Positions 8,443-24,954 of a stretch of 31,251 nt of DNA are shown one piece after another (positions within the stretch are counted from its first letter, which is position 1; every line of letters starts with the position of its first letter). Location of the stretch: the IMG/VR virus record IMGVR_UViG_3300017917_004031, positions 1 to 31,251 of that record. The stretch is one strand, 5' to 3'. Origin of the DNA: a virus. The position numbers and the translations under genes are program-made. Below the pieces are notes generated by a model. The model was not told where the DNA came from, ran no database searches, and saw nothing but the letters and a program-made list of their open reading frames with translations.

Positions 8443-8871
8443 TTAGAAATATTCTTTATTTATTGCTTTAGTATTACTTATATTTTTAAAAGGTATATAA
8501 TAGTTTTCATAATTATATTTTTTACAATGTGGTGCTAAAACTAATTCTGATATTGCTATTTGTTCTTCAAATTCATCGTATGCTTCATCTACTTCTTCTT
8601 CAGATGATGCTCCTCCCCCAAATCCAGGCTCAGATAATCCTATATTCAACACATAAGATGTTTCGGTTTCATCTGTGTCTATATCCATATTGCATTCTAT
8701 AAGGGTATATTTAGTATTACTTAATTTGTTTAGGTCATCATAACTTATACTATCGTAATACAAATATTTATTATCGGCTAATAAAGCAATACCTGTTTTT
8801 GTAGGGATAATACTAAGTGCATTGAATGGTTGTACTTTAACCTCTTTTAATATATTAATTAGTTTTATCAT
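8443..8871 (-). CDS. 142-aa protein with amphipathic N-terminal tag
   Basis: It begins MIKLINILKEVKV, a short amphipathic helix with an L-K-E site, resembling the tagged proteins at 23802-24954. A beta-rich stretch follows, then a Gly-rich/acidic linker (GFGGGASSEEEVDEAYDEFEEQ, about residues 82-103; shown here only to locate it) and a Tyr/Lys-rich end. It lies 3 nt after gp6 and is followed by a terminator hairpin. A virion-internal or baseplate accessory is possible; no family is recognised. Confidence 0.7.
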   Translation of the reverse strand: MIKLINILKEVKVQPFNALSIIPTKTGIALLADNKYLYYDSISYDDLNKLSNTKYTLIECNMDIDTDETETSYVLNIGLSEPGFGGGASSEEEVDEAYDEFEEQIAISELVLAPHCKKYNYENYYIPFKNISNTKAINKEYF

Positions 8872-8874
8872 ATT

Positions 8875-10701
8875 TTAAAGTATTACTACTCTTCCTTGTA
8901 TGTCTGTATTAGGATATCTAACTTCAAAAATAGATGGATCTAAACTAGGATAAATTACATTATTTCTAGTTGCTCCTGGTATGTCATACCCATAAACAGA
9001 ATAATTAGTTCCTGTACTATCTTGCTTATTTATAATTTCTACTTTAACTACAGATTGTACTCCTCTTACTCTTAATAATCTAGCCATTATATCAGATAAT
9101 ACTATAGGTTGATTTATCTGCCACTTATCTATATTAAAATGGTCTTGCAAAGCCAATATACAATTACTAATTACTTCATTATTATTATATCCTGGTGTAG
9201 TTGTAATATCAAAATTAACTCCTATGTTAATATAGAATGCATTTTTAATGTTTATAGCATCGGTAACCATTCTATATTCGTTCATGTAAGTAATTAAATT
9301 ATTTTTTAACGTACTAGCAGCCGATATAAGTTGTTTGCTTGAATTATACGCTAAAATATACATATCTAATGCTAATAGATTACTTGCTTCTGAACCATTA
9401 GTTGAGGCCGGTGTTTTATCTACATATACTTTAGCTATACTTCCATATTCTGACGGTAATGATAATGCTCTTACTAAGTAATCGTTTTTAGTTACAGCTC
9501 TTAATTGAGATGAGTAAGCATATAATGCATTATTTCTGACTTCTTCTACTTGATCTCCATCTCTACCACCAGATGATGGATTTACGTTATTAGATACAAC
9601 GCTATTTAATATTTGATTTGCTAAAGCCGTGTTAAATGGAGTACCATTTTTAAAATAAGCTCCATTAGCATCTATAAGTGTTAAATCATTTGAGGGAACA
9701 TTAGATGTTACACCACCTCCAACTAAATATCTAACTTGTAAAGAAACGTTTGATGGTGCTAAACCATATTCTCTAGTAAAGTAAACAGAAGCTTTATTAT
9801 AATTATCAGCTAAATCTGATATACCAGGTACTAATCCTAATTGAATATTATCTGGTGTAGGGATAATGGTTTCATCTGAACTATTAGATACTCCAGCTCC
9901 AAATTCCAATTGCATTGTACTATCTGATAATAATCTTGATACAAATCTTCTTGGAGTGCGTTGTAATGTGAGTAGGTAAGGGACTTGTCCTGAATCAGAA
10001 CCAGTATTAGCTGTTCTTTGATATACAGTAGATTGAGCTAAATATGGTACTTCATACCATTGATTAGCATCACTACCTGTTATATCTAATATTTGTAATA
10101 TATTGGTATCAGTTAACTCTATAGTTTGGAATTTTTGAGGTGTAGTGAATGTAAATGTATTAGTCTTTATTTCAGCTGATATAGCTTTAACTGTCTTTTT
10201 AACTAGGTAAAAATTATCACTAATAAAAGTAATTTCTGCTCCTGTTAAATCAGTAAAATCTACACTATCCGTAGTTATAAAATTAGTTCCTGTTGAGGTT
10301 GATGTTATATTAGTATTAGCAGGGATAATTAAACCATATGTTATACTATCAGGTACTGTTTCTCCTGTTACTACATTTACTATAGAAGGCATTAATTGAT
10401 ATACGTCTAAGTCAACAGATGAAGCGTAAGATGCTTTAGGTCTATAACCCATAACATATGACATAGCATATAAATTTTCTTTTTCTTTAGCGTATAGTAA
10501 GAAATTTTCTTGGATTTGTGTGTCCAAATAAAATGACATTACATCTCCTACGTAAGATGCTAATTCAATAAACATATTTCCTGGAGATGCGTCCGAGAAA
10601 TCATTATATGTGTTTGGAAAATAGGTTTTAGCGTAATTTATTAAATTTGCTTTAAAATCACTAAAACTCTTATTTATGTATGATACTTTATTGTCTGCCA
10701 T
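8875..10701 (-). CDS. Baseplate wedge protein, T4 gp6-like (baseplate J family)
   Basis: This 608-aa protein has an N-terminal block, SFSDFKANLINYAKTYFP then ASPGNMFIELASYVGDVMSFYLD, typical of gp6/baseplate-J proteins. It reads as solved wedge proteins do: an N-terminal helical region, central beta domains, and a C-terminal segment with ARLLRVRGVQSVVKVEI near residue 550. T4 gp6 is of similar length (660 aa). It lies 2 nt downstream of the gp25-like gene, an order common in contractile-tail phages. Gp6 forms the ring of baseplate wedges that dilates at contraction. Confidence 0.85.
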   Translation of the reverse strand: MADNKVSYINKSFSDFKANLINYAKTYFPNTYNDFSDASPGNMFIELASYVGDVMSFYLDTQIQENFLLYAKEKENLYAMSYVMGYRPKASYASSVDLDVYQLMPSIVNVVTGETVPDSITYGLIIPANTNITSTSTGTNFITTDSVDFTDLTGAEITFISDNFYLVKKTVKAISAEIKTNTFTFTTPQKFQTIELTDTNILQILDITGSDANQWYEVPYLAQSTVYQRTANTGSDSGQVPYLLTLQRTPRRFVSRLLSDSTMQLEFGAGVSNSSDETIIPTPDNIQLGLVPGISDLADNYNKASVYFTREYGLAPSNVSLQVRYLVGGGVTSNVPSNDLTLIDANGAYFKNGTPFNTALANQILNSVVSNNVNPSSGGRDGDQVEEVRNNALYAYSSQLRAVTKNDYLVRALSLPSEYGSIAKVYVDKTPASTNGSEASNLLALDMYILAYNSSKQLISAASTLKNNLITYMNEYRMVTDAINIKNAFYINIGVNFDITTTPGYNNNEVISNCILALQDHFNIDKWQINQPIVLSDIMARLLRVRGVQSVVKVEIINKQDSTGTNYSVYGYDIPGATRNNVIYPSLDPSIFEVRYPNTDIQGRVVIL

Positions 10702-10703
10702 GT

Positions 10704-11114
10704 TTATTGAAATTCTATAGTAACTTGATCTGAAGTTCCTGAAATGTTTAATGTATAATTAACTGTTACACTTACCTCGTAAGTATCCTCACTAAATTTA
10801 ACATCTATGTTGTTTATCCTTGCTTGAGGTACATAAGTACTAAAAGCGGTAGATATTTTTTCTTGGATAACCGGTATGAGATTTTCTGTCATTCCCTCAA
10901 ATAAAACATCTTTAATATCCGCACCAAAATTAGGATTCATTATTCTTTCACCTCTATTAGTTAATAAAAGGTTAATGACATTAGATTTAATTTGGTCTTT
11001 AGTGCTATACGTACTATTGAATACAGCAGGTCCGTTAAATGGTAATGAAATACCAATTGCTGTATTTTTCTGTAAGTCTAAAGGATCTACACGTGTTATT
11101 TGAGGTATTGGCAT
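10704..11114 (-). CDS. Baseplate wedge protein, T4 gp25-like (GPW/gp25 family)
   Basis: This 136-aa protein (T4 gp25 is 132 aa) contains the family signature LLLTNRGERIMNPNFGADIKD near residues 49-69 (cited for position), then VPQARINNIDV and a C-terminal strand VSVTVNYTL. Gp25 proteins form the inner baseplate wedge contact with the sheath and start sheath assembly. Adjacency to the gp6-like gene strongly supports the call. Confidence 0.9.
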   Translation of the reverse strand: MPIPQITRVDPLDLQKNTAIGISLPFNGPAVFNSTYSTKDQIKSNVINLLLTNRGERIMNPNFGADIKDVLFEGMTENLIPVIQEKISTAFSTYVPQARINNIDVKFSEDTYEVSVTVNYTLNISGTSDQVTIEFQ

Positions 11115-11115
11115 C

Positions 11116-11460
11116 TTATCCTAAATTATTTAGTCCTGCTTTATCCTGAGCAGTCATATTAGCGGCAGCATCCATAATAAAATTCATATATGGATTATCG
11201 TTAGTTTTATCCACTACTAAAGGAATACCATTACTAGATACACTAGGCGTTTCTAAACCAAACATAGCTCCCATTTTAGATCTTAATTGATTACGAACGT
11301 CTCCTACTTCATGTACGTCATTACTGGTAAAACTAAATGTTTTATTTTCATTCATTTGTCTTGCAGACATTTGATTTTCATTTAGAATAGTGTGTAATTC
11401 TTCACGAACAGCTTCAGCTACTGCTTCTTTGATTAATTTTTTAAATGTTTTTACATTCAT
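11116..11460 (-). CDS. 114-aa protein with a charged N-terminal helix and LNE site
   Basis: It opens with MNVKTFKKLIKEAVAEAVREE and then HTILNENQ, so an amphipathic helix of about 28 residues ends at L-N-E, the pattern cleaved by T4-type prohead proteases. The remaining ~85 residues are polar, with a Met-rich C-terminus. It lies between the gp25-like and membrane/coiled-coil genes, 1 nt before gp25. The helix-plus-LNE leader matches other proteins in this window and suggests a head-targeted or protease-processed product; this is inference. Confidence 0.7.
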   Translation of the reverse strand: MNVKTFKKLIKEAVAEAVREELHTILNENQMSARQMNENKTFSFTSNDVHEVGDVRNQLRSKMGAMFGLETPSVSSNGIPLVVDKTNDNPYMNFIMDAAANMTAQDKAGLNNLG

Positions 11461-11473
11461 GTGTATAAATATT

Positions 11474-12697
11474 TTAAATTTGTAAATTTTGTTGATCTAT
11501 TATTATCTTTACCTGATCTATTAATACTTGTGGTTCTAATGTATATGAGTATTCACTTTTAACTATCTCCACACCATCTCTATCTAACGCCGCAGCATAA
11601 TTACGTTTTATACTTCCTTTTACAAAACTTCTAGGATCTTGGTCTTCTTTAATTACTAATTTAAATCCTTTATAAAATTCTTCTTTAGGTTGTCTGATGG
11701 TATTTAATAAAGCCGTAAGTGCCCCTAACGAGCTATTGTCAATAGTTTGTATATCTAATCTATTATCTACATTTCTTAACTGTGCTTTCAATTCATTCAG
11801 ATAAGCTATTATTGGCTCTAAAATAGATATTAATATAGCTAGGGCAATATTTAAGTATTTTAAAGTATCTGCTACTTTTCTATATCCTTCAGCTGCAGAA
11901 GCAGGTGTACCAGGGAATGATATAGATGCTAGAATTAAAGGTAATAATGCTTGTAAAATAGATGTAGTAATTAATATAATACTTAATGTTCTTTGAATAT
12001 TAACTAAATTTTGTTCGTTATTACTAAGAATATTATAAGCAGCATTTCTAGATACTCTAGCTTGTTCTAACTGTTCTGGTGTAGTAGCGTTATCTATTAT
12101 TTCATTTGTTTGGTCTACTAACTTTTGGAGGCTATTATTTTGTCTAGCTAATCTCATTGCTACTCTAACACCAGAGTATAATAATAAAGGTGCTATAGTT
12201 TTAGCAACACTAGTTAGTAATCCTTTAAGAGCCTTAGTTCTACCTGCTTTATTTTTTTGTTTATTTCTAGCTAATTTAGCTTTATATTTTTTTTCTTTAA
12301 GTTTACGTTTAGCTTTAGGATCTTTTGTTATACTCTGAATTTGATCCTCTGTTTGTTTTTGTTGTTCTTCTAAAGCAGCTTTTTCTACTTCATAGCGAGC
12401 ATTTTCAACAGCAACCGCTACATTATATTCTTCTTCAGTTAAAGTAGGTTGAGCTGGTGGTTTTGGTTGGTATTGAGAATCTAGTTTTTTAAGGTTATTT
12501 TTATGGGTAACTTCTAATTCTGTTTTTCTCTTTATAATTCCTTCTAATTTTTGTTTTAAAATTTGAAGTTGACCTAAAGCAGCCGATACTACTTTTTGTT
12601 TAGCCTGATTTACTACTTGGTCTCCAAAAGCAGTAGGTAACCCAGTACTAGCTAGAGTATTAGTTATTCCAGGCGATATTAAAGATGATACGTTCAT
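11474..12697 (-). CDS. 407-aa coiled-coil and membrane-segment virion protein
   Basis: Residues about 40-150 form a long charged coiled coil ending in a very basic Lys/Arg stretch. Hydrophobic segments follow near residues 157-175, 237-259 and 281-299. A tail-module protein with membrane-spanning helices may insert into the host envelope during DNA delivery. Its start overlaps the stop of the spike gene (TAATG). No family is recognised, and the ejection role is inferred from position and hydrophobicity. Confidence 0.7.
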   Translation of the reverse strand: MNVSSLISPGITNTLASTGLPTAFGDQVVNQAKQKVVSAALGQLQILKQKLEGIIKRKTELEVTHKNNLKKLDSQYQPKPPAQPTLTEEEYNVAVAVENARYEVEKAALEEQQKQTEDQIQSITKDPKAKRKLKEKKYKAKLARNKQKNKAGRTKALKGLLTSVAKTIAPLLLYSGVRVAMRLARQNNSLQKLVDQTNEIIDNATTPEQLEQARVSRNAAYNILSNNEQNLVNIQRTLSIILITTSILQALLPLILASISFPGTPASAAEGYRKVADTLKYLNIALAILISILEPIIAYLNELKAQLRNVDNRLDIQTIDNSSLGALTALLNTIRQPKEEFYKGFKLVIKEDQDPRSFVKGSIKRNYAAALDRDGVEIVKSEYSYTLEPQVLIDQVKIIIDQQNLQI

Positions 12698-15894: not shown

Positions 15895-16588
15895 CGTAGT
15901 ATAATGATTTTTTATCAATATTAGATATTAGATATCCGTCTACACCCCAGTAAGATACATTACATCCCATAGTATAAAGTATATCTCCATCTATGGCTTC
16001 GCAAGTAGCATATCCATCTTCTACAGTATCAGGAATTATATCAAATTCTAATTCTTTTACTTCTCCACTTATAGTTTTTACAAGACAATCTACACTAGAT
16101 TTAGTATCCATTTTACTTAAAACCTCAATAATCTCAGGGTCTACTTCCTCTTCCCACTCATAATCATTCGGATTAAAATTTTCCTGTATCTTTTTAGCCA
16201 TAATTTTATTATAATCAGCCATACTCAATACGCGACCTTCAGATGATAATGATATAATATTTTCTGAAACATCATGTAAATCCATATCTGTTTTAGCATC
16301 TTCGCGAGCATACTCAAGCAAGCGGATAAATAAAGGTACATCCATTTTTATGACATCCCTAGGATTTTCTGCCTCTTTTATTGTTGATTTAGCCTTATCT
16401 ATACCTTTAGTTTTACTAATAGCTTTCTCAACAAACTTAATAGCTTCAGGAGTCTTAAACTCAATAGAAAATGTTTTATCTATTTTATTATCCTGAATAT
16501 CAAATGTATCCACAGCAATCCCAAATTTTTCAAGGCGATTTAGGAATGCTGCTTTATCTTCCGATTTAATTGTAAATTTCTTTCCCAT
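15881..16588 (-). CDS. 235-aa two-part phage protein
   Basis: The start at 16588 is chosen because its ATG overlaps the upstream stop (TAATG); a further ATG lies 12 nt earlier. Residues about 85-135 contain DVPLFIRLLEYAREDAKTD followed by LHDVSENIISLSSEGR, a helical block that looks like a small phage family seen as separate proteins. The C-terminal ~75 residues form another unit, with DCLVKTISGEVKELEFDII. It may be a fusion of two modules. Function is unknown. Confidence 0.7.
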   Translation of the reverse strand: MGKKFTIKSEDKAAFLNRLEKFGIAVDTFDIQDNKIDKTFSIEFKTPEAIKFVEKAISKTKGIDKAKSTIKEAENPRDVIKMDVPLFIRLLEYAREDAKTDMDLHDVSENIISLSSEGRVLSMADYNKIMAKKIQENFNPNDYEWEEEVDPEIIEVLSKMDTKSSVDCLVKTISGEVKELEFDIIPDTVEDGYATCEAIDGDILYTMGCNVSYWGVDGYLISNIDKKSLYYDVIN

Positions 16589-18555
16589 TATTTTACCCAA
16601 TTTTGGTCTTGTACTTCTTTATCTGCTTTTTGTAATAACGCTTGAACATCTTTACCTGCATTTTTAGCTGCTTCTAATCCTAAATCAAACAATGGGTGTT
16701 GACGAGCATTTTCAAATGGTGTCTCATTATCTTGATACATGGTTCCTCCACCTGTTATTTCACTATTCTCAGGATCATAGTCCCATTTTCTATTAGTTTT
16801 TCTATTGTTTTGGTTTTTCTCTGTTTGATAAGCATGACCTATTTTAATAATCAATGCCTCAGTCGGAGTCATAGGACGGCCAAATTTCAATGGTTGACTA
16901 CCAAAATAGTATTTAGTATCACCCATTGTTGAATCAACTTCAACTTCCTCATCACCCTGTGGAGTAGAAATAGTCACCTTTTTATTCGGAGTACCTTTAC
17001 CTACAACATATTCAGTTGCTTTAGAGTTAACGTTATATCCAAAACCAGCAGTATTTTCTTTAGTACATGAAACCATACCAGTTGCTAATATAGTACACAC
17101 TACACCAGCCATAATTTTATCTTTCAAACCTTCATCCATATTCTCTTCAGGTTTAATTTCACCTGTTTTATCTACAGACATATACGTGATGGTATTTGGT
17201 TTGGCTGTACCTTTACGTTTATCAACTAATTTAAAAGCACCAGGATGTACTTTGTCTATACCGACTTTAGCCAATTGAAGTTTCAATTGATCCATAATAT
17301 CATCTTCCTCGATTTGTTCTCTAAGAACATATTCTAATTCTTCACGAATTATTTGACGTATTTCTTTTATTTTCATATTTTCTCTAAAAGGATTTAATTT
17401 TTTAGGCTTGTAATCAGGAAATAATTTAGGTAACAATTCAGGACCTAATTTTCTACTATTTATTAATGAATAAAGCGAAGCATTTTTCTTAATAAGTTCA
17501 CCTACTGTTTTTATATCATTATTTTTTACATAATCAGTTACTTGCTCTATAAATTCTTCATCACTTAATTTTCTTTTATAGTTAGGAAATACTTGATAAA
17601 CAAGTCCGCGATTATGCATATTATTATATAATGAAATATTTTGTTTATAAAATTCACTTGGTGTTGTTATGTTATTGGTTTTTATATAATCTATTATATA
17701 TTTTACAAATTCTTCATCATCTTTAGGATACTTACGTTTAGACACCCTAGGAAATAACTCAGGAAATATTTCTTTATTGAGTTTTCTCTGGTATATTGCT
17801 GAGTATAATGGAGTGTTTTGTTTCTGTAATTCGCCTGGTGTTGTAATATCATTAATTCCTACATAATTAGTTACATATTTTATAAATTCTTCATCATCTT
17901 TAGGGTATTTGTATTTAGACCACCCAGGAAATGCGATAGAATATACTTGGTCTACCAATCCTCTATTATGTATAGTTTGATATAATGGGGTGTTTTGTTG
18001 TCTTAATTCACCTGGTATTTTTATATTATTATCTTTTACATAATCAACTACATATCTTACGAATGCTTCGTTATCTATAGGATATTGTGTGTTACTTTTA
18101 GTTCTTAAATTATCAGGAAATAATTCTTTTGATGTAAATAGTATCGATAATCCACGATTCCTTATTGTCTGGTATAACCCATTGTTTTGTTTCTGTAATT
18201 CGCCTACTGTTTTTATGTCATTATCCTCTATATAATTCTTAACATACTTTATAAATTCTTTAGTATTTACAGGGTATTTACTTCTAGAATAATCAGGAAA
18301 TATTTCGGCATAGACTTTATCAGCAAGTTTTCTATTTTGTATTGTTTGATACAATGGAATATTTTGTTGTCTTAATTCACCTGGTGTTTTAATATCATTA
18401 TCCTCTACATATTTCTTAATATATTCTATAAATTCATCATTATCCTTAGGATATTTTGCTTCATCTACAATACTATAAGAATCAGTATTTTCGTTTAATA
18501 ACCCAGCTAGTCTTAACATTCTACGAAATTCTTCACTTAAGATTTGTTTACTCAT
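16588..18555 (-). CDS. 655-aa six-repeat protein with N-terminal tag and internal lipobox-like segment
   Basis: Residues 1-22 form a leader, SEEFRRMLRLAGLLNE, ending in L-N-E. Six repeats of about 58 aa follow (roughly 35-93, 94-157, 158-216, 217-275, 276-329, 330-388), each with YPKDxEEFIKYV, NDIKTPGEL, a QN..LYQTI stretch and an NRGL...LFP close. The repeat's LY..I..RGL core resembles a small helical module next to phage homing-nuclease domains, which suggests nucleic-acid binding. A second tag-like helix begins at Met394 (MKIKEIRQIIREELEYVL). A hydrophobic stretch with ATGMVSC lies at 482-497. The protein looks like a fusion of a repeat array and a separate tagged protein. Function is unknown. 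Confidence 0.75.
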   Translation of the reverse strand: MSKQILSEEFRRMLRLAGLLNENTDSYSIVDEAKYPKDNDEFIEYIKKYVEDNDIKTPGELRQQNIPLYQTIQNRKLADKVYAEIFPDYSRSKYPVNTKEFIKYVKNYIEDNDIKTVGELQKQNNGLYQTIRNRGLSILFTSKELFPDNLRTKSNTQYPIDNEAFVRYVVDYVKDNNIKIPGELRQQNTPLYQTIHNRGLVDQVYSIAFPGWSKYKYPKDDEEFIKYVTNYVGINDITTPGELQKQNTPLYSAIYQRKLNKEIFPELFPRVSKRKYPKDDEEFVKYIIDYIKTNNITTPSEFYKQNISLYNNMHNRGLVYQVFPNYKRKLSDEEFIEQVTDYVKNNDIKTVGELIKKNASLYSLINSRKLGPELLPKLFPDYKPKKLNPFRENMKIKEIRQIIREELEYVLREQIEEDDIMDQLKLQLAKVGIDKVHPGAFKLVDKRKGTAKPNTITYMSVDKTGEIKPEENMDEGLKDKIMAGVVCTILATGMVSCTKENTAGFGYNVNSKATEYVVGKGTPNKKVTISTPQGDEEVEVDSTMGDTKYYFGSQPLKFGRPMTPTEALIIKIGHAYQTEKNQNNRKTNRKWDYDPENSEITGGGTMYQDNETPFENARQHPLFDLGLEAAKNAGKDVQALLQKADKEVQDQNWVK

Positions 18556-21456: not shown

Positions 21457-21888
21457 CTATTCTGCTATAACTGCTTCAGGCTTAACTACTTTCGGTCTGC
21501 CCGGCTTGATAGAAAGGCCTGCTGCTAGTTTTTCTGCTCTAGCCTGCATTCTAGCTTGGCGAGCTGATCCTTCTACAGCCGGACGTCCTCTTCTCAAGAG
21601 ACCCTCTTCACGCAAGCGAGCTTGCTCTGCTAGACGTAATTGTCTAGGTGAATTTGGATCAACGGGCCTGCCTTTACGCTTGATCTCTGCAGTAGCAACC
21701 TCGGCTACTGTAACAATTTGTACTTCCTCAGTTTGAGGTTCTACATCATCAAAATTCTGCTCAGCAAAATTCTCTTGAGCCGCAACAATTGCTGCTTCGA
21801 TTTCTGCTTTTTTCATACCTTTGATGTCGATGCCTAATGCTTTTGCTTCGGCTTTCATTGCATTGAATAATTCTAATCCGTTTTTCAT
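21457..21888 (-). CDS. SAP-like plus triple AT-hook DNA-binding protein
   Basis: This 143-aa protein begins with FNAMKAEAKALGIDIKGMKK (residues 8-27), resembling the helix-turn of a SAP DNA-binding domain. An acidic linker (41-58) follows. Then come three AT-hook cores spaced 28-29 residues apart: RKGRP (71-75), RRGRP (99-103) and KPGRP (128-132), joined by similar Arg/Ala-rich helices (SxRQxRxxxxAE). AT-hooks bind the minor groove of AT-rich DNA, and the genome is AT-rich. It may compact, bridge or regulate phage or host DNA. A smaller relative is encoded at 23440-23694. Confidence 0.8.
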   Translation of the reverse strand: MKNGLELFNAMKAEAKALGIDIKGMKKAEIEAAIVAAQENFAEQNFDDVEPQTEEVQIVTVAEVATAEIKRKGRPVDPNSPRQLRLAEQARLREEGLLRRGRPAVEGSARQARMQARAEKLAAGLSIKPGRPKVVKPEAVIAE

Positions 21889-23122: not shown

Positions 23123-23359
23123 TTAATAATTATCATCGTAGTCATCATCATCCTCATCCATCCACGACAAATCTTCTTCCTCCGGAGTAAACTCAATATC
23201 GTCTATTTCCTCTAGCTGAGCTATCAGATCATCAACTTGCTGACCCATATACTCTAGATCGATATTCTCGATGTTGGTTGCATTTAACATGGCTTCATCT
23301 AGGATATTATCGATTTCCTCTTTAGCCTTTGCTAGGTGTTTTATTATTTTATCTTTCAT
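23123..23359 (-). CDS. 78-aa extremely acidic coiled protein
   Basis: A basic N-terminus (MKDKIIKHLAKAKEE) leads into helices with Asp/Glu on the exposed face, ending in EEEDLSWMDEDDDDYDDNY. Such acidic tails occur in DNA-mimic and histone-binding-like proteins; here the basic AT-hook protein gene lies two genes upstream and could be a partner. It is expressed from the 80-bp regulatory cassette also found before the gene at 24122. Function is unknown. Confidence 0.7.
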   Translation of the reverse strand: MKDKIIKHLAKAKEEIDNILDEAMLNATNIENIDLEYMGQQVDDLIAQLEEIDDIEFTPEEEDLSWMDEDDDDYDDNY

Positions 23360-23435
23360 GGTAAAAAATTTTAGATAAATATACGAAAAAAATCGCCTAC
23401 AAACAAAAAAGTCTGCAGGCGATCTAGTAAAAAGC
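23356..23435 (-). repeat. 80-bp duplicated regulatory cassette, copy 1
   Basis: Identical base for base to 24481-24560. It contains a start codon, ACC leader, TATATTTATC core, a T-run and the hairpin of the preceding gene. TTTG boxes lie about 20 nt upstream of the core, as in Bacteroidota sigma-A promoters. Confidence 0.9.
23392..23423 (-). terminator. Hairpin after the small AT-hook gene (inside the 80-bp repeat)
   Basis: ATCGCCT/AGGCGAT, 7 bp with an 18-nt T-rich loop, then a run of seven T on the coding strand. Confidence 0.65.
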
Positions 23436-23439
23436 TACC

Positions 23440-23694
23440 TTAGGCTGCAGCCTCAACTTTTACTTTTGGGCGACCCGGTCCTACTCTCTCACCACGAGCG
23501 ATTCGTTCTGCACGTTCTTGCATTTTAATTGCACGTTTTGAAGTGGTTGATGCTGGGCGACCACGTTTAATTTCTGCTCCGTTTGCGATTCGTTCTGCTT
23601 TAGCTGCCATTTGAGCTTGACGCTTTGAACCTTCTACTACCGGACGACCTACTTTTTTAGTTGCAGTAGCAACTGTTGCATTTTCTGTTGACAT
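23440..23694 (-). CDS. 84-aa triple AT-hook protein
   Basis: Three cores, KVGRP (14-18), KRGRP (43-47) and GPGRP (72-76), recur every 29 residues. They are linked by helices with SKRQAQMAAKAERIANG-type sequence, the same repeat as in the 143-aa AT-hook protein but without its SAP-like and acidic parts. It is very basic. Its role is probably minor-groove binding to AT-rich DNA, either as a nucleoid-like protein or a packaged cofactor. It has its own promoter and terminator. Confidence 0.8.
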   Translation of the reverse strand: MSTENATVATATKKVGRPVVEGSKRQAQMAAKAERIANGAEIKRGRPASTTSKRAIKMQERAERIARGERVGPGRPKVKVEAAA

Positions 23695-23801: not shown

Positions 23802-24110
23802 TTACCAAATTTCTATACCTAATTCGTCTAGTTTTTCTATAAAATCTCTTATCTTCTCATCATCCTCATCATCAAAATTACCCTGATAAGCATCTTTCCC
23901 AGTGATGTCGGATAATACATCTAGCCATTCCTCTGAGCCTCCCTCAATCTCTTTACCTCCCATGGACTCAAAATAGTCTTCATCAATACCGTTTCGTCTT
24001 AAAACATCCATTACCTCTTGCTTGAGTATATCTTCTTTAGTCTGGATTTTAACTTCGTTGATACCGGCTAGTTCTTGTAAGCGCTTTGCTTCGTTTATTA
24101 ATTGTGTCAT
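23802..24110 (-). CDS. 102-aa tagged acidic protein (INEAKRLQELAGINE leader)
   Basis: Residues 4-18 are INEAKRLQELAGINE, an amphipathic helix ending in I-N-E, followed by VKIQ. The rest is acidic and helical (EDILKQEVMDVLRRNGIDED; then GNFDDEDDEKIRDFIEKLDE). The leader is nearly identical in the next gene although the remainders do not align. In T4, an N-terminal helix directs internal proteins into the prohead and gp21 cuts after (L/I)xE. The product may therefore be a capsid-internal, ejected protein. Confidence 0.75.
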   Translation of the reverse strand: MTQLINEAKRLQELAGINEVKIQTKEDILKQEVMDVLRRNGIDEDYFESMGGKEIEGGSEEWLDVLSDITGKDAYQGNFDDEDDEKIRDFIEKLDELGIEIW

Positions 24111-24121
24111 TGTAAAAATTA

Positions 24122-24484
24122 TTAAATATTATATGAAATACCATAAACAGATTTTCCGGCTATGGTTAATTTAAAATTAGTAGCGTCACCATATGTGTCT
24201 TTAACTTTTTTAGGGTTAAAAGAAAAATCCAACCCGCCTTCACCTAAACCAGCTATTTCTTGATCCTCATACCCATCCTCATCAGCAGCCATTTCTATCT
24301 GTTGTTCGCTATAGTATTCCATATCATTCTCATCCCAATTAAATTCAACAGCTAGTTGGTTCAAAAGTTCTTGCTTGTTTTGTTTAAGAAAATTAATAAT
24401 ACCCGTACCTGAAGGTTGAATTTTAACTTCATTGATACCTGCTAGTTCCTGCAGACGTTTTGCTTCGTTTATTAGTTTTGTCAT
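24122..24484 (-). CDS. 120-aa tagged protein (INEAKRLQELAGINE leader)
   Basis: It shares residues 4-22 with the 102-aa neighbour. After VKIQPSGTG comes a helical part (LKQNKQELLNQLAVEFNW), an acidic middle (AADEDGYEDQEIAGLGEGG) and a short beta-like C-terminus (NFKLTIAGKSVYGISYNI). It ends 11 nt before the next tagged gene, so both are transcribed from the 80-bp cassette. No family is recognised beyond the leader. Confidence 0.75.
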   Translation of the reverse strand: MTKLINEAKRLQELAGINEVKIQPSGTGIINFLKQNKQELLNQLAVEFNWDENDMEYYSEQQIEMAADEDGYEDQEIAGLGEGGLDFSFNPKKVKDTYGDATNFKLTIAGKSVYGISYNI

Positions 24485-24560
24485 GGTAAAAAATTTTAGA
24501 TAAATATACGAAAAAAATCGCCTACAAACAAAAAAGTCTGCAGGCGATCTAGTAAAAAGC
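24481..24560 (-). repeat. 80-bp duplicated regulatory cassette, copy 2
   Basis: Same 80 bases as 23356-23435, placed before the tagged gene at 24122-24484. It ends in the terminator of the next gene. Confidence 0.9.
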
Positions 24561-24578
24561 GCTCGTAGTGAGCGCTTT
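24556..24578 (-). terminator. Terminator of the third tagged gene
   Basis: AAAGCGCTC/GAGCGCTTT, 9 bp with a 5-nt loop and a T-run on the coding strand. Confidence 0.85.
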
Positions 24579-24591
24579 GTATTATTTTTTA

Positions 24592-24954
24592 TTATACTCC
24601 TGCTTTAGAATAAATATCAGGATCAGATAATGAAATCCAATTTAAATATGCATATCCTTCTGGGTCATAATCAGATACACTATAGCTCCATCTTACCCAC
24701 TCTTCTTTACTTATAGATTGTCCTGGTTTAAATGTTGATTTGAATGAATCAAGATGTTTTTCATCTTCATAACTATCTACTACATCTAATAATTCCTCAT
24801 ATGAATATTCATTTGGGGATTGATCAAAAGCTTGATCAATTTCATCTTTTTCACCCATGTCATAATCTCCATTATCTTCTTGATTTTCGTTAAGCGATCT
24901 AATACCTGCTAATTCCTGGAAGCGCTTAGCTTCGTTTATTAATTGTTTTTTCAT
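24592..24954 (-). CDS. 120-aa tagged acidic protein (INEAKRFQELAGI...LNE leader)
   Basis: The start is ATG 24954 (MKKQLINEAKRFQELAGI); a longer frame upstream reads non-coding DNA. The leader ends with RSLNE, again a T4-protease-like L-N-E. The mature part is acidic (DYDMGEKDEIDQAFDQ, then EELLDVVDSYEDEK) with a Trp/Tyr-rich C-terminus (WVRWSYSVSDYDPEGYAY). Three tagged genes in a row with different bodies suggest a leader spread by duplication and recombination. Confidence 0.75.
   Translation of the reverse strand: MKKQLINEAKRFQELAGIRSLNENQEDNGDYDMGEKDEIDQAFDQSPNEYSYEELLDVVDSYEDEKHLDSFKSTFKPGQSISKEEWVRWSYSVSDYDPEGYAYLNWISLSDPDIYSKAGV

Follow-up and report, generated by a model that had tools for sequence, protein, structure and literature searches.

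Why should three adjacent phage genes with unrelated bodies begin with the same peptide? The genes lie on the minus strand of a complete virus record of 31,251 bases (the window, the whole stretch of DNA that was analyzed), which its baseplate wedge matches identify as a fragment of a T4-like contractile-tail phage; no near match to it was found among isolated-phage records. Tagged gene 3 (24592-24954, 120 aa, starting MKKQLINEAKRFQELAGIRSLNE), tagged gene 2 (24122-24484, 120 aa, starting MTKLINEAKRLQELAGINE) and tagged gene 1 (23802-24110, 102 aa, starting MTQLINEAKRLQELAGINE) each open with a leader that we call class A, occupying 24886-24954, 24428-24484 and 24054-24110, respectively, with a putative cut after LNE in gene 3 and after INE in the other two. 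The initial annotation had described LINEAKR[L/F]QELAGI as common to the three genes and their bodies as non-aligning. Both observations were borne out: the motif stands at all three N-termini, and the bodies gave no mutual match in an all-against-all blastp comparison. Its broader reading, that the genes belong to a tagged set of capsid-packaged proteins, is supported by the comparisons described here, and we assign a probability of roughly 0.84 to the leaders being capsid-targeting propeptides that are cut by the prohead protease and work like those of the T4 internal proteins.

The tags themselves appear to be maintained as peptides. Among the tag codons of the three window genes, 55–71% of synonymous sites differ versus 0–3% of nonsynonymous sites. 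Synonymous sites are thus near saturation while nonsynonymous ones are almost unchanged, indicating selection on the peptide rather than a recent copy of the DNA; duplication at the DNA level was ruled out as the origin of the tag by these codon differences. The shared part had also been said to end at INE. In two of the genes this did not hold exactly, as the similarity extends four residues beyond the presumed cut, from INE to INEVKIQ, which counts against the cut-site reading. PHROGs and Pfam returned no function for any of the three bodies. One large contig encodes homologs of the gene 1 body both as a class A-tagged protein (G004:47968-48279) and as an untagged one (G004:11001-11249).

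Several other features of this part of the window were recorded. A 92-nt intergenic cassette is present at 23344-23435 and 24469-24560 in copies that are 95% identical, one of them preceding a tagged gene, and consists of a hairpin terminator followed by a promoter-like stretch (TATATTTATC). A 61-nt family built around TTAATTGTGATGTAAATATA, followed by TTTG or TTGA, occurs at 13 places between 20045 and 30028, near many small genes, and probably represents phage promoters of the Bacteroidota type. Small proteins with repeated, AT-hook-like GRP motifs are encoded at 21457-21888 and 23440-23694.

To follow the class A tag beyond the window, a degenerate DNA pattern for KRxQ[EK]LAGI was scanned in IMG/VR, and the tag set was drawn from the matches listed. 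Among these, over all loci, the tag was N-terminal in at least 111 distinct cases, C-terminal in at least 55 and interior in at least 4. The bodies that carry it are unrelated, with 101 class A bodies among the matches listed falling into about 80 families. In addition, 53 tags were combined into a 14-residue matrix, which was run over eleven large genomes plus the window (1.8 Mb). It gave about 50 matches of at least 13 bits in real proteins versus a single 11-bit match in shuffled proteins, and nearly all of the matches lay close to a Met (about 14 residues away at most) or to a stop (5 residues at most). Across 257 Gb of bacterial and archaeal sequence a stricter DNA pattern matched once, and not in a matching reading frame, whereas the first 119 viral stretches gave 66 matches. 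A chance or low-complexity origin was ruled out by the shuffles together with the bacterial-genome scan, and the same scan excluded a general bacterial helix as the identity of the tag. The phages that use it form a T4-like group, several of whose members are known or likely to infect Bacteroidota. The tag strings that were tried were absent from the open-access literature searched.

The most informative occurrence of the tag is on a head protein. It had been suggested that the genome be searched for a gp21-like protease and a gp22-like scaffold. The 31-kb window contains no head genes, gp21-type protease included, but the search succeeded in its closest large relative, G001 (171.7 kb), whose baseplate protein is 83% identical to that of the window. 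This contig encodes a Peptidase_S77 protein (PF03420, E 2e-32), a gp22-like scaffold with the tail described below and gp23 (phrog_138, 3e-72), and it has two adjacent tagged genes resembling those of the window. An S77 protease was detected in 16 of 22 large tag-bearing contigs and was not found in the other 6, which are fragments or diverged; these 6, like the lack of head genes in the window, count against the propeptide reading. Eleven genomes with a gp21-type protease were mapped, ten contigs and the isolated Flavobacterium phage immuto, and in all eleven the tag motif closes the acidic gene that lies between gp21 and gp23 (for example IVESNDVISRMQKLANIIK, IVESEAFVSRWQKIAGIK and IVENTVAKRLQELAGII, each running up to the stop codon). 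The isolated Microcystis phage Mel-JY01 (ERMKKLAGIVK before the stop) and contig G026 (FARWQTLAGIKK before the stop) agree, so that the motif ends the scaffold in 13/13 sampled genomes with the standard head cluster. The leader thus amounts to the tail of the scaffold followed by a cut site. The scaffold assignment is based on position, acidity and the number of (L/I)xE sites; the seven tailed proteins tested have a pI of 4.1–4.4 and 11–19 such sites. Comparison with T4 is suggestive only, whether by the weak match of the tailed scaffold to the T4 gp22 profile (33 residues, E 0.007, probability 5%) or by the T4 gp22 tail DIVSVYAKVASRF, which came 4th when T4 C-termini were scored against the tail profile in 2884 placements. 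The N-termini of the major capsid proteins (xAaRLagKWxKSGLLEGL) are faintly tag-like as well, and no relationship is claimed.

Would the leader then bind where the scaffold tail binds? It could instead be a capsid-targeting signal with another partner, such as the scaffold core, the portal or the gp23 delta domain, its likeness to the scaffold tail arising only from helices selected for the same protease. T4 targeting sequences have indeed been described as core-binding (PMC9026906), and a genome's tag variant does not covary with its own scaffold tail (p = 0.51). Because the variants fail to track the tail in this way, shared docking is not proven. Against a different partner stand the closeness of the motif match at the scaffold end in every one of the 13 genomes and the distribution of the tag: class A tags were found in none of T4, G023 and G024, and the scaffolds of all three lack the tail. 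We consider another partner doubtful, though it is the best surviving of the alternatives. In G023 (10106-12097) and G024 (99324-101315), an S77 domain lies inside a single 663-aa reading frame directly before gp23, apparently a protease-scaffold fusion.

A propeptide should be accompanied by a place to cut. The pattern used to scan for tags did not itself select for [LI]xE, and such a site was nonetheless found within 8 residues after LAGI in 90 of 105 non-identical tails, whereas 1000 shuffles gave 30.5 on average and 45 at most. Where the tag is at the C-terminus of non-scaffold proteins, the (L/I)xE-type site instead precedes the KR or equivalent two residues (LKEIKR, IQEVKR, IDEFKR, MAEMKR, LAEAVR and INEIKR are examples), and in the scaffolds IVE or ISE is placed about 5 residues upstream of the C-terminal peptide. 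In both arrangements, cutting at the site would part the docking peptide from the body.

Further leaders had been proposed elsewhere in the window, all on the minus strand. The one at 18555 is a true, though diverged, copy of the tag (17 bits in the tag matrix). It occupies 18490-18555, has a putative cut after LNE and begins a 655-aa protein (16588-18555) with the leader MSKQILSEEFRRMLRLAGLLNE, repeats of about 59 aa and a lipobox-like ILATGMVSC; a homolog, L149, starts MSKQILSKESYRRQELAGLLKE. The same protein has an internal helix resembling a class C leader (MKIKEIRQIIREELEYVLRE, 17317-17376) that is N-terminal in the G001 homolog (122755-124056). In that relative (G001:122722-124056) the class C leader comes first and a class A tag is inside, an arrangement which suggests that both are polyproteins that the protease could split. 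The possible relative of the tag at 8871 is a leader as well, but it belongs to a separate and very common class B (MIKLxDILxE). It covers 8842-8871 at the start of a 142-aa protein (8443-8871, MIKLINILKE) and agrees in its 10-residue pattern with the capsid-targeting sequence of T4 IPIII. The charged helix at 11460 was likewise found as described but represents a third class (C). Its leader (MNVKTFKKLIKEAVAEAVREELHTILNE, 11377-11460, putative cut after LNE) opens a 114-aa protein (11116-11460) encoded beside a baseplate wedge gene; it is conserved in this neighborhood, which makes a capsid role less sure.

Both additional classes are concentrated at protein starts. Class B was detected at 71 of 2400 predicted N-termini (a few of these being class A or C) versus 5 of 8459 interior windows, and class C at 21 of 2400 N-termini versus none of 7508 interior windows. 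The class B pattern is hydrophobic at positions 4, 7 and 8, acidic or Asn at 6 and Glu at 10; of the 57 leaders in the refined set, 54 have Glu10, and 52 of these also have Leu8. In T4 IPIII (MKTYQEFIAE), targeting depends on residues 4 and 7 and processing on residues 8 and 10 (PMC9026906). Class B matches this sequence by pattern, whereas class A does not. Mel-JY01 (PP395634, concatenated positions 47657-50099) has three tandem class B genes, with MIKLKSLLQEIISDRVWHLT leading into the start of an ADP-ribosyltransferase-like body.

Homologous bodies with different leaders were found for the exchanges A–B, A–C and B–C. For example, an ADP-ribosyltransferase-like body has a class A leader in L056, whereas L091 and L111 have it with a class C leader. 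In G004 a WYL_2 body follows a class A leader, but in G001 its leader is class C and in G009 it has none; another body has class A in G004 and class B in L055. The most complete case is a family resembling Acb1, whose members carry, depending on the phage, a class A tag, the class B leader MIKLLDLLKE or the T4-like MKTIKDFINE. This single family therefore ties the new leaders to a T4-type sequence. Its junctions include MESQEFKRMQELAGIIVE/EKQTYDFG, MIKLLDLLKE/EKQTYDYG and MKTIKDFINE/KKAAYDFS, and the junction Glu is invariant in 25 homologs. In an AlphaFold model, pLDDT is below 50 at residues 1–18, exactly the leader up to the junction Glu, and about 96 over most of the body. The family conserves two HxT motifs (H65/T67 and H140/T142; 2H fold), and the model matches cGAMP phosphodiesterases and phage Acb1 (7t27) at E 3e-5 or better. 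Other 2H enzymes (Usb1, LigT) match as well, and the score against Pfam Acb1 is 26.8 bits with a cut-off of 27. T4 Acb1 lacks a leader and cut site of this kind.

Among the other cargo bodies, two class B proteins scored above the zeta-toxin/kinase cut-off, and some tagged bodies resemble ADP-ribosyltransferases in sub-threshold Pfam matches; a collection scan for homologs of the ADP-ribosyltransferase-like body returned only itself. Two proteins (G009:168419-169756 and G011:138667-140091) combine an N-terminal class B-like leader with a C-terminal RMxKLAG tail. Two class A proteins have a lipobox-like sequence soon after the leader (L248:10254-10670, STVLASC; L049:4648-5040, STILASC) and are possible injected lipoproteins. 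The cargo likely includes anti-immunity enzymes, judging from these domain and fold matches. On the other hand, the tagged bodies are mostly acidic, unlike the basic T4 internal proteins, which counts against the internal-protein reading.

This acidity, shared with the scaffold proteins here, would also fit a different purpose: the tagged proteins could be additional parts of the core or of scaffold assembly, comparable to T4 gp67 and gp68, and either be degraded or remain in the head, serving head building rather than delivery. In G003, G004, G005 and G008, some tagged families indeed have their genes right next to gp21 or in the interval that separates it from the scaffold, and one 200-aa tagged family occurs in five contigs. 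However, most tagged genes are distant from the head cluster, with only 6 of 33 within 3.5 kb of gp21, a placement that also counts against the propeptide reading; the roughly 80 families are for the most part not common to relatives, and enzyme folds typical of effectors are present among the bodies. A head-building role therefore seems unlikely to us, slightly more so than a different docking partner. A role that has nothing to do with heads, as a localization or regulatory signal (for the membrane, the nucleoid or degradation, or as a translation-start cassette that was copied), would suit the N-terminal position and the duplicated intergenic cassette upstream of one tagged gene, but it is very improbable given the tag's presence at C-termini and on the scaffold, its conservation at the protein rather than the DNA level and its replacement by a T4-type targeting leader in front of the same invariant cut site.

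What can be read directly in the sequences is the tag, its placement, its equality with the scaffold tail, the (L/I)xE enrichment, the exchange of leaders on homologous bodies and the protease of the relatives; from these features we infer that the propeptides are packaged and cleaved, where they dock, that the cargo is injected and what it does. During assembly of the prohead core, the KRxQxLAGI helix would dock at the place used by the C-terminal tail of the gp22-like scaffold, because the two are one peptide, and would thereby bring unrelated cargo into the prohead. The gp21-type protease would then cut after (L/I)xE, past the peptide at an N-terminus and ahead of it at a C-terminus, freeing mature cargo to be packaged and probably injected with the DNA. 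Class B and the charged helix of class C appear to do the same job as class A. The equality of tag and scaffold tail and the exchange of leaders, the T4-like one included, on homologous bodies go beyond what the initial annotation had noted. At even odds, in our estimation, is the fuller proposition that the scaffold's C-terminal docking peptide is a portable, cleavable address tag for either protein end, used beside two exchangeable tags, and that the three together list head-packaged effectors, including a cyclic-nucleotide phosphodiesterase that would disarm CBASS-type signaling at DNA entry.

The equality of a cargo tag with the tail of the scaffold directs attention to one specific binding site. 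To our knowledge, the binding partner of a capsid-targeting sequence and the way in which a phage picks its head cargo are open questions even for T4, the structure of whose core is unsolved. As a search key, the tags point to dozens of candidate injected, possibly anti-defense proteins without database matches in uncultured phages, and they could be used, as short natural handles, to load proteins into phage heads. A literature search found no paper on the virion proteins of phage immuto.

The closest known parallel is T4, whose capsid-targeting sequence has 10 residues and is cut after L/I-x-E, and whose internal proteins copurify with gp22 (PMC9026906). T4 Ip1-3 have only the leader in common, and the type IV restriction enzyme that is blocked differs from one to the next (PMC12373910). 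Like IPI, IPII and IPIII, the proteins described here combine a short N-terminal leader, unrelated bodies, an (L/I)xE end and, in the relatives, a gp21-type protease. Class B shares the 10-residue length, and one body family carries MKTIKDFINE itself. In contrast, the class A leader is longer, has a KRMQKLAGI core, equals the scaffold C-terminus and is used at C-termini too, and the cargo set, whose packaging is predicted, is larger and mostly acidic. T4 Alt is a packaged ADP-ribosyltransferase cut at both ends (PMC9026906); the candidate enzyme cargo here, the proteins of G009 and G011 with leaders at both ends, and the weak ADP-ribosyltransferase matches recall it, although the tag sequence differs. 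In P1, the first 30 residues of DarB are a sufficient packaging signal (PMC9024508). That signal is also N-terminal and sends an anti-restriction protein into the head, but it has no link to a scaffold tail, and P1 has no identified separate scaffold. In SPN3US and other giant phages, the prohead protease removes from ejection proteins N-terminal propeptides that are proposed to direct proteins into the head (PMC5694885). The leaders here resemble them in position, putative head targeting and probable removal by a prohead protease, but several of those propeptides exceed 100 residues and the motif is another. Engineered cargo loading in P22 is achieved by fusion to the scaffold protein, the cargo entering via the scaffold's coat-binding end. 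There, as here, the cargo bears an end of the scaffold, but the P22 system is a laboratory construct, whereas the one proposed here would be natural and cleaved.
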